A stretch of 64,000 nucleotides of DNA from Tardiphaga sp. 709 (lineage in GTDB: Bacteria > Pseudomonadota > Alphaproteobacteria > Rhizobiales > Xanthobacteraceae): contig NZ_CP135529.1 in NCBI RefSeq assembly GCF_032401055.1, forward strand, positions 4,276,501-4,340,500, written 5' to 3'. A model generated the notes under the pieces. That model saw only the letters and a list, made by a program, of their open reading frames with translations, made no database searches and was not told the DNA's origin. Shown in pieces: positions 27,865-57,210 of the stretch (the first letter of the stretch is position 1; each line of letters begins with the position of its first letter). The position numbers and the translations under genes were made by a program.

Positions 27865-30396
27865 TTACGTTGCCTTTCGCGCCTGCAGACTCGGTGTGCC
27901 TGGCAGATCGCCAGCAACCGGCACGCCCCAGATATCGTCGGCATATTCGCGGATGGTGCGATCCGACGAGAACCAGCCCATCCGCGCGGTGTTGAGAATC
28001 GCGGCGCGACTCCAGGCTGAGCCGGCCCTCCACCGCGTGTCGATGCCGCGCTGGGCTTCGTAATAGGAGTCGAAGTCGGCGGAGACCACATAGTGATCGA
28101 GGTGGCGCAGCGCGTGGCCGACCGAGGCGTAGCGGCCGGGATCATCCGGCGAGAACGCGCCGGTCTCGATCGCCTGGATCGCGCGGCCGAGATTGGGCGA
28201 CTTGTTGATGACGTCGGAGGCGTCCAGGCCCTTGGCGCGGCGCTCGACCACTTCGGCAGCAGTCATGCCGAAGATCGCGATATTCTCCGGGCCGACATTG
28301 TCGCGGATTTCAATATTGGCGCCGTCCAGCGTGCCGATGGTCAGCGCGCCGTTCAGCGAGAGCTTCATGTTGCCGGTGCCGGAGGCTTCCATGCCTGCGG
28401 TCGAAATCTGTTCGGACAGATCAGCTGCGGGAATGATGACTTCCGCCAGGCTGACATTGTAGTCCGGCAGGAACGCGACCTTCAGCTTGCCGCCGATCGT
28501 GGTGTCGTTGTTCACGACCTCGGCGACGTCATTGATAAGGCGGATGATCAGTTTGGCGTAACGATAGCTCGCCGCCGCCTTGCCGGCGAAAATCTTGACG
28601 CGCGGCACCCAGTCCTTGCCCGGCTCGTCCTTGATCGCCTGATACAGCGCAACGGTCTCGACCAGGTTGAGTAGCTGCCGCTTGTATTCGTGGATGCGCT
28701 TGATCTGCACGTCGAACAGCGCCGAGGGATCGGCCTGTACGCCGAGCTTCTCTCCGATCACGCGCGCGAGTGCGAGCTTGTTGTGATGTTTAACCTTGCG
28801 GAATTCCTGCTGGAACGCGGCGTCGCCGGCAAAGGCCTCGAGCTTGATGAGCCGGGTGGGATCGTCGAGCACGGCTTCGCCGCAGGTTGCGCGCAACAGG
28901 TCGGTGAGTTTCGGATTGGCCAGCATCAGCCATCGGCGGAAAGTAATGCCGTTGGTCTTGTTGGTGATACGGCCAGGATAAAGCTGGTTGAGGTCGTGGA
29001 ACACGGTCTCTTTCATCAGCTCCGAATGCATTGCCGAGACGCCGTTGATGCGGTGCGAGCCGATGAAAGCGAGATTGCCCATGCGCACGCGGCGGCCGGA
29101 GGTCTCGTCGATGATCGAGACCGAAGCGCGATAGGCGGTGTCGCCGGGACGCGTCGCATCGGCGCGGTCGAGATGCGCTTCATTGATGCGGTAGATGATT
29201 TCGAGATGCCGCGGCAGCAGACGCTGGAACAGTTCGACCGGCCAGGTCTCCAGCGCTTCGGGCAGCAGCGTGTGGTTGGTGTAGGACAAGGTCGCGTTGG
29301 TGATCTGCCAGGCGGCATCCCAGCGCATATTGTGCTGATCGACCAGAATGCGCATCAGCTCGGCGATGGCGAGGCTCGGATGCGTGTCATTCATCTGCAC
29401 CGCCGCCTTGTTGGCGAGGCCACGCAGATTGCCGTCGGAATGGAGGTGACGCTTCACCAGATCCTGCAGCGAGGCGGAGACGAAGAAGTATTCCTGGCGC
29501 AGACGCAATTCGCGGCCGGCGGCACTCTCATCGTTAGGATAGAGAAACTTGCAGATGGCCTCGGCGCGCGATTGCTCGGCGCTGGCGCTGACATAGTCGC
29601 CGGTGTTGAACACGTCGAGCCGCAGCGGATCCGGCGCGCGCGCCGACCACAGTCGCAGCGCGTTCACATGTTGACCGCGCCAGCCGACGATGGGCGTGTC
29701 ATAGGCAACGGCCTCGACGGTCTCGCCGGGATGCCAGATGAGCTGCTTGCGGCCCCTGCCGTCCTCGACGGTTTCGATGCTGCCACCGAAATAGACGTTA
29801 TACGTGACTTCCCGCCGCGGAAGCTCCCACGGATTGCCGAAGCCGAGCCACTCGTCGGGATATTCTTGCTGCACGCCGTGAGAGATGACCTGACGGAACA
29901 GGCCGAAGTCGTAGCGGATGCCGTAACCGAAAGCCGGAATGCCGAGCGTTGCCATGCTCTCCATGAAACAGGCGGCGAGGCGGCCGAGGCCGCCATTGCC
30001 GAGCGCTGCATCGGGCTCGCATTTTCTGAGTTCGTCGAGGCCGACACCGAGATCGCCGAGCGCGGCTTCGAACAGCGGCAGCAGGCCCATATTGTTCAGC
30101 GCGTCGGTGAACAGGCGGCCGATCAGGAATTCCAGCGAGAGGTAATAGACCCGCTTGCGGCCGGCATCGTAGCTCTCTTTGTCCGAGGTCAGCCAGCGAT
30201 GCACCATGCGGTCGCGCAGTGTCAGTGCGGCAGCCTTGTACCAGTCGTGCTTGGTGGCGAAGGCGGCTTCCTTGCCGATTGCCAGCCGCAGCTTGACGAG
30301 AATGGCGCTCTTGATGTCGGCAAGCGCCAGTTCATCGACAGGCATGTTCTCCGGCTGGAATTTTGCTGGGACTGATTGATCTGACAAACCGGCCAT
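27865..30396 (-). CDS. glgP: Glycogen/starch phosphorylase
   Basis: An 843-residue cytosolic enzyme that releases glucose-1-phosphate from alpha-1,4-glucans. Recognisable strings are YLSLEFLIGRLF (N-terminal region), RMGNLAFIGSHRINGVS, YNVSLAEVIIPAADLSEQIS and the cofactor region EASGTGNMKLSLNGA with IGTLDGANIEI, where the pyridoxal-phosphate lysine is expected. Length is normal. ATG 30396 is chosen over a GTG five codons upstream. No other glg genes are adjacent. A candidate LexA site lies 132 bp upstream and overlaps a possible promoter reading this way. Confidence 0.97.
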   Translation of the reverse strand: MAGLSDQSVPAKFQPENMPVDELALADIKSAILVKLRLAIGKEAAFATKHDWYKAAALTLRDRMVHRWLTSDKESYDAGRKRVYYLSLEFLIGRLFTDALNNMGLLPLFEAALGDLGVGLDELRKCEPDAALGNGGLGRLAACFMESMATLGIPAFGYGIRYDFGLFRQVISHGVQQEYPDEWLGFGNPWELPRREVTYNVYFGGSIETVEDGRGRKQLIWHPGETVEAVAYDTPIVGWRGQHVNALRLWSARAPDPLRLDVFNTGDYVSASAEQSRAEAICKFLYPNDESAAGRELRLRQEYFFVSASLQDLVKRHLHSDGNLRGLANKAAVQMNDTHPSLAIAELMRILVDQHNMRWDAAWQITNATLSYTNHTLLPEALETWPVELFQRLLPRHLEIIYRINEAHLDRADATRPGDTAYRASVSIIDETSGRRVRMGNLAFIGSHRINGVSAMHSELMKETVFHDLNQLYPGRITNKTNGITFRRWLMLANPKLTDLLRATCGEAVLDDPTRLIKLEAFAGDAAFQQEFRKVKHHNKLALARVIGEKLGVQADPSALFDVQIKRIHEYKRQLLNLVETVALYQAIKDEPGKDWVPRVKIFAGKAAASYRYAKLIIRLINDVAEVVNNDTTIGGKLKVAFLPDYNVSLAEVIIPAADLSEQISTAGMEASGTGNMKLSLNGALTIGTLDGANIEIRDNVGPENIAIFGMTAAEVVERRAKGLDASDVINKSPNLGRAIQAIETGAFSPDDPGRYASVGHALRHLDHYVVSADFDSYYEAQRGIDTRWRAGSAWSRAAILNTARMGWFSSDRTIREYADDIWGVPVAGDLPGTPSLQARKAT

Positions 30397-30479
30397 CCTG
30401 AGCTGTGTCACTGACCAAAATCATACGCGCATTTGGCTGCTCCCGGAACCCGTGAGGGTGGCGAGCTTTTGCCATGGAA

Positions 30480-30498
30480 CTGCCCGGGATTTGGGCAG
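30480..30498. other. Hairpin CTGCCC/GGGCAG upstream of glgP
   Basis: A perfect 6-bp stem with a 7-base loop, within the probable glgP leader between the candidate LexA box and the start codon. Function unknown; it could affect leader folding. Confidence 0.3.
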
Positions 30499-30527
30499 GC
30501 ACGCGAGAACCGGATCTATAAAAACTG

Positions 30528-30542
30528 GAACAAATTAAGAAC
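30528..30542. promoter_or_regulatory. LexA (SOS) box GAAC-N7-GAAC, glgP / acidic protein gap
   Basis: GAAC at 30528-30531, seven bases (AAATTAA), then GAAC at 30539-30542: the exact alphaproteobacterial LexA pattern (GTTC-N7-GTTC read on the other strand). It is part of a longer direct repeat, GAACAAATTA twice at 11-bp spacing. On the minus strand TTGTTC and TATAGA, 18 bp apart, could be -35/-10 elements overlapping the box and reading toward glgP; on the plus strand TACAAT at 30589 lies before the 143-residue gene. Confidence 0.65.
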
Positions 30543-30626
30543 AAATTAGTAAGCTATTGATATTCCGAGGTGATTCGTTGCCTTCGCCTACAATATCTAT
30601 GGTCTGTTCAAGCTCGCGAGGACTAG

Positions 30627-31058
30627 ATGTCCACCATTGCCTTCGATCAGTTTGCTCTCACCCGCATAGCCGACTTCGCGCGGTCGCTGTCGCGGCTGCA
30701 TTTGATGGCGCGCCGGCATCCCATCGATGACGATCAGATCGATCGCGAGTTCAACACCGTTTGCCTCTCGGTCTGGGGCTATACGACGGACGACATCAGC
30801 GATGACCTGTTCTCGCTGGAAGATCACGCCTGGCTCGACCAGCTCGACGAGGCGCATGCGCGGATTTTCGCCGCGGAACAGGGCTACGACCTTGTCGACG
30901 ACCACGGCATGCTCACCGACTGGTGGGGCTATTGCTGGATGATCCTCGCCGAGAAGCGCGGACTGCTGACGCCGGAGAATCGCGCGGCGGCGCGTGCCGA
31001 GATCGAGGAGAAGTATCTCTCGGCGCCGAACGTGATCGGCGTCATCGTCGGGCGATGA
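30627..31058 (+). CDS. Conserved-looking acidic protein of unknown function, possible SOS gene
   Basis: A 143-residue protein I do not recognise. It is soluble, without signal peptide or membrane segment, mostly helical in appearance and acidic (many D/E around residues 45-90). Trp-rich segments are VWGYTTDD, DHAWLDQL and TDWWGYCWMI. ATG 30627 has GAGGA six bases upstream. An exact LexA-type box lies 85 bp before the start, so it may be induced by DNA damage. It converges on the DUF2865 gene with a single base between the stop codons. Confidence 0.8.
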   Translation: MSTIAFDQFALTRIADFARSLSRLHLMARRHPIDDDQIDREFNTVCLSVWGYTTDDISDDLFSLEDHAWLDQLDEAHARIFAAEQGYDLVDDHGMLTDWWGYCWMILAEKRGLLTPENRAAARAEIEEKYLSAPNVIGVIVGR

Positions 31059-57195: not shown

Positions 57196-57210
57196 GAACG
57201 AAGAGGGAAC
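57196..57210. promoter_or_regulatory. LexA (SOS) box GAAC-N7-GAAC upstream of rmuC
   Basis: GAAC at 57196-57199, seven bases (GAAGAGG), then GAAC at 57207-57210; on the minus strand this reads GTTC-N7-GTTC, the known alphaproteobacterial LexA operator. It is 33 bp before the rmuC start and 174 bp from the divergent def start, so rmuC is the likely target. Confidence 0.65.

Follow-up and report, generated by a model that had tools for sequence, protein, structure and literature searches.

LexA operators have been described in the alphaproteobacteria as GTTC-N7-GTTC (PMC3323433) and in Caulobacter as (T/A)TGTTC(N6)TGTTC (PMC13384398). The same papers characterize the shared alphaproteobacterial SOS core as small (PMC3323433, section 7) and state that many damage-induced genes have no assigned function and that Caulobacter and its relatives carry SOS genes of unknown function (PMC13384398). 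In a 64-kb window of the Tardiphaga genome (the whole stretch of DNA analyzed here), a first-pass annotation had reported an exact LexA box in the gap between glgP and an open reading frame (ORF) of 143 codons. We found this box, GAACAAATTAAGAAC, at positions 30528-30542 of the plus strand and followed by A, which yields the predicted operator GAACA-AATTAA-GAACA at 30528-30543, with half-sites at 30528-30532 and 30539-30543. On the minus strand, glgP (PF00343 and TIGR02093 matches) starts at 30411. The 143-codon ORF occupies 30627-31058 on the plus strand; 84 bp separate the end of the box from its ATG, and a Shine-Dalgarno-like GAGGA at 30618-30622 is also present in the consensus of relatives. 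To our knowledge, the gene downstream of the box is not among the known SOS genes. The predicted box resembles described alphaproteobacterial LexA operators in its half-sites, spacing, trailing A, and position upstream of a gene start, as well as in its recurrence at Tardiphaga lexA and recA. On the comparisons given below, the box at 30528-30542 is almost certainly a LexA operator, and we put at about 0.9 the probability that 30528-30543 serves the promoter of the 143-residue gene as a LexA operator and that this gene is LexA repressed and damage induced.

The short form of the motif is uninformative by itself. GAAC-N7-GAAC was seen twice in the window against 1.58 expected, so the earlier estimate of one or two chance matches was right, and genome-wide it gave 159 matches versus 143 for the reversed control, near background. 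Given these counts, GAAC-N7-GAAC alone carries no weight. The second match in the window lies at 57196-57210 and does not fit the extended consensus. In contrast, the extended pattern GAACA-N6-GAACA, which corresponds to the Caulobacter TGTTC-N6-TGTTC read on the opposite strand, was seen once in the window against 0.07 expected and at 21 sites genome-wide versus 2 for the reversed control. It was also detected in each of 198 sampled genomes of the Bradyrhizobium-containing family, where the reversed control also gave a few sites, usually fewer.

We listed mechanically the ORFs flanking the 21 extended sites in Tardiphaga and scanned 30 of them with Pfam. Extended boxes lie 179 bp upstream of lexA (TIGR00498), 109 bp upstream of recA (TIGR02012), 177 bp upstream of ssb, 102 bp upstream of Ku, and 65 bp upstream of a radical-SAM protein (TIGR03916, named by NCBIfam as a putative DNA modification/repair protein). 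An opposed pair of boxes 17 bp apart (L146/L147, around 1501) lies 379 bp from the first-listed start of a DNA polymerase III alpha subunit. This link is weaker because the nearest model is of the replicative rather than the error-prone type; a shorter frame lies nearer the boxes. Similarly spaced opposed pairs were present in several other family genomes among the matches listed. Other extended sites are within or next to ORFs that have no obvious connection to SOS (CheR, NYN, AIR carboxylase, RNase T2, and another radical-SAM ORF); given such neighbors, part of the 21 sites are probably chance matches or tied to unrecognized genes. Judged by the company it keeps, the motif appears to serve as a control element of SOS genes in this genome. 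Two further ORFs with extended boxes at 1501, of 273 aa (L164, 1607-2428, plus strand) and 134 aa (L165, 1528-1932, plus strand), start within ∼100 bp of the box, one of them on a second contig; neither has a match in Pfam or NCBIfam, and we regard both as candidate SOS genes. A DUF3072 protein (PF11272; L145, 1177-1464, minus strand) has its start 44 bp from an extended LexA-type box.

Conservation of both GAAC half-sites in orthologous gaps, the comparison that the first-pass annotation had proposed as a check, was assessed in two sets: 50 of the 62 family genomes that matched the protein and 80 loci kept from 238 relatives. The two share members, and the window's own locus (L009) is among the loci counted; together the 130 loci represent 122 distinct 130-bp upstream regions, and the counts cover gene carriers, with loci L180-L190 outside them. 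GAAC-N7-GAAC was present upstream of the 143-aa gene in 129 of 130 loci (121 of the 122 distinct regions), compared to 34 of 12,200 first-order Markov shuffles of the same regions. The first 110 loci, including that of the window, all carried the box, as did 19 of 20 further loci encoding proteins of 47 to 81% identity; the sole exception, L129, has lost the first half-site. Box position relative to the start codon was also stable, ranging from -79 to -106 in the first 110 loci (-98 to -101 in 99 of them) and from -70 to -115 in the other 19 box-bearing loci. Across the 121 of 122 regions that bear the box, on which column invariance was computed, a conserved promoter block (30528-30580, plus strand, in the window) begins abruptly at the box. 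The DNA 5′ of this block is unconserved: the commonest base accounts for only 29 to 53% in each of the 40 columns that precede the box. In two remote relatives outside the family (L167 and L168), no box was detected in the 3.3-kb stretches read.

The most distant box-bearing orthologues separate the half-sites from the spacer. In L125-L128 (47 to 54% identity), spacers have changed to GAACGAATAATGAAC, GAACAAAACTCGAAC, GAACAAACATAGAAC, and GAACAAAGATAGAAC while both GAAC halves are kept, as would be anticipated for a LexA operator. Main-clade loci conserve the spacer and the downstream block along with the half-sites, the spacer being nearly fixed as AAATTAA or GAATTAA in 104 of 121 regions. 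A near-fixed spacer need not imply a different regulator, since the recA-box spacer of the Tardiphaga genome, GAACATATTGCGAACA, likewise recurs unchanged in at least 8 other genomes, at places not confirmed as recA. The longer direct repeat that had been noted around the box does exist in the window, where the 10-bp sequence GAACAAATTA occurs at 30528-30537 and again at 30539-30548. However, beyond GAAC this repeat is a local feature, as the consensus of relatives reads GAACACTTTA after the second half-site.

The region between the box and the start codon may hold part of a promoter whose -35 region would be covered by the operator. In 111 of 121 regions, the first TA...T or TATATC hexamer lies 16 to 20 nt past the second half-site of the box (14 to 24 nt searched, with a loose pattern and without a chance control). 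At this distance, the second half-site would overlie the -35 region. The corresponding -10-like hexamer of the window lies at 30561-30566 on the plus strand, 18 nt past the second half-site, and reads TATTCC, a degenerate form; most relatives have TATATC or TATCAT. A strict sigma-70 consensus scan of 30380-30660 returned no promoter on either strand. Given that result and the degenerate hexamer, the position of the promoter is a predicted one. Within the box-to-start region, 30559-30580 is a conserved block and likely includes the -10 region; in relatives, its consensus contains the palindrome TGATATATCA and GATTCGG. With the promoter so placed, LexA bound over the -35 region would repress the 143-residue gene in undamaged cells. 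Upon DNA damage, RecA filaments would form and LexA would cleave itself, allowing transcription of the gene, probably as a single-gene unit.

Other explanations of the box can be weighed against the same comparisons. A chance occurrence between genes might be argued from the near-background frequency of the short pattern in both window and genome, but the 21-to-2 enrichment of the extended pattern and the presence of the box in register in 129 of 130 loci, next to upstream DNA that has diverged, make coincidence extremely improbable. A more specific alternative concerns CtrA, whose consensus is TTAA-N7-TTAA. The sequence TTAAGAACAAATTAG overlaps the box, where the CtrA-like reading is TTAA-N7-TTAG, and TTAA-N7-TTA[AG] is found in 92 of 122 distinct upstream regions. 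However, the full TTAA-N7-TTAA is found in none of the 122, and distant orthologues drop TTAA while keeping GAAC-N7-GAAC, so that a CtrA-type site is a very unlikely identity for the conserved element. Conservation that continues downstream of the box could also mean that the 50-bp block as a whole serves as a promoter for some other regulator, with the GAAC halves forming part of its site. We give this possibility similarly little credence: what the most distant orthologues retain is the halves and the next A, and lexA, recA, and ssb are preceded by the motif as well.

The remaining alternative is that LexA bound at this box controls glgP, alone or together with the small gene, and so ties DNA damage to glycogen breakdown. 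The first-pass annotation had raised this link from a minus-strand -35/-10 pair, and the arrangement in Tardiphaga is suggestive: the box lies about 117 bp from the glgP start, and the pair, TTGTTC-18-TATAGA, is present in the window and directed at glgP. Comparison of relatives argues against it. TTGTTC-N16..18-TATA[AG]A was found in just 2 of 122 upstream regions, those of the window and of one member of its genus. A glgP gene was identified in 97 of the 110 loci, divergent each time, at 215 to 1,993 bp from the small gene (median, 870 bp); its absence from the other 13 cannot be concluded, since at most 1.5 to 4 kb of upstream flank was searched. L125-L128 keep the box with no glgP in the 3 kb read. 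The box thus holds its distance to the small gene but not to glgP, and because of this difference and the unconserved promoter pair, we assign the site to the small gene. Damage control of glgP is left unsupported and is a very slim prospect; glgP is probably not involved in the SOS control that the box would exert. The preferred reading is still a LexA operator serving the 143-residue gene.

Distribution of the protein points to a gene of long standing in one lineage. It was detected in 62 of 198 family genomes and in 11 of 47 genera, and the 80 loci kept from 238 relatives in the named genome collection bear titles that are mostly Bradyrhizobium and Tardiphaga. At the level of the order, profile searches that scored up to 10 candidates per genome were positive in 17 of 397 genomes, every one of them from the same family; at the level of the class, such searches were positive in 5 of 385 genomes: two in the family, two remote members of another family, and one weak partial match. 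The remote homologues, in another alphaproteobacterial family, lie at 3232-3693 of L178 and 3837-4256 of L179; the stretches read for a box at these genes are L167 and L168. A mobile or phage origin was considered and rejected, with no tblastn match in 72,556 plasmid records (E value, 1e-5) or 50,697 phage records (E value, 0.01). The best reading of these searches is that the gene is old within the Bradyrhizobium-containing family. In that the gene would be LexA linked with a role yet to be assigned, it resembles by description the functionally uncharacterized SOS genes of Caulobacter and its relatives; in contrast to these, the 143-aa protein is nearly confined to one family in the samples searched.

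Purifying selection acts on the predicted protein: all 108 ungapped copies, the window's own included, have an ATG start and no internal stop, and the median pN/pS was 0.134 by a simple uncorrected count over the 107 copies with enough change. The first-pass annotation had recognized no family for the protein. The window protein had no match in Pfam, NCBIfam, or PHROGs; 12 orthologues compared to Pfam gave nothing convincing (best E value, 0.029); a sequence-profile search of PDB reached only 0.88. AlphaFold2 modeling from 12 sequences predicted a mostly helical protein (pLDDT, 88.3; pTM, 0.80), with four of five models at confidence 86 to 88 and the fifth at 54. At an E-value cutoff of 0.001, Foldseek searches of the model returned nothing from PDB or from viral models, and no match in either was better than 0.3 (best PDB E value, 0.32). 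A defense function was rejected as well, with a best PADLOC E value of 0.019 that came from a single member of the 12. Inspection by eye of a length-greedy ORF listing of ten loci, a listing that contains spurious frames in GC-rich DNA, revealed no neighbor common to the most divergent orthologues.

The protein is acidic (pI 4.55; charge, about -13; GRAVY, -0.22). DinI is likewise a small acidic SOS protein, but the likeness to the putatively SOS-induced 143-aa protein is one of size and charge only; the latter is longer and has no DinI match in Pfam. Since the product is small, acidic, and mostly helical with no recognizable enzyme family, we favor, tentatively, a protein-binding modulator that may act during damage, for example on recombination, replication, or division, over a repair enzyme; of the possible roles, this seems the likeliest. 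The gene is unnamed in the literature searched, which included the available parts of PMC13384398, PMC1839093, and PMC3323433, with lists from regulon surveys outside that scope; an earlier prediction of a LexA site before it is possible.

Together, the consensus match, the genomic enrichment, the company of the motif, and its conservation strongly support, at the level of sequence, the proposal that the box is a LexA operator controlling a new SOS gene. Since almost every relative examined keeps the site in front of this gene, the gene very probably forms an uncharacterized part of a Bradyrhizobium-type damage response. At somewhat less than even odds, it would found an uncharacterized family of DNA damage effectors that have an unrecognized, mostly helical fold, are kept under LexA control across Bradyrhizobium, Tardiphaga, and their kin, and act in repair, replication, or division at a step outside the known SOS genes. 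The result counts against an appealing connection of DNA damage to glycogen breakdown. With its predicted operator kept in nearly every carrier examined and no described family in the libraries searched, the 143-residue gene is a strong SOS-gene candidate in soil bacteria, among them nodulating and photosynthetic species.
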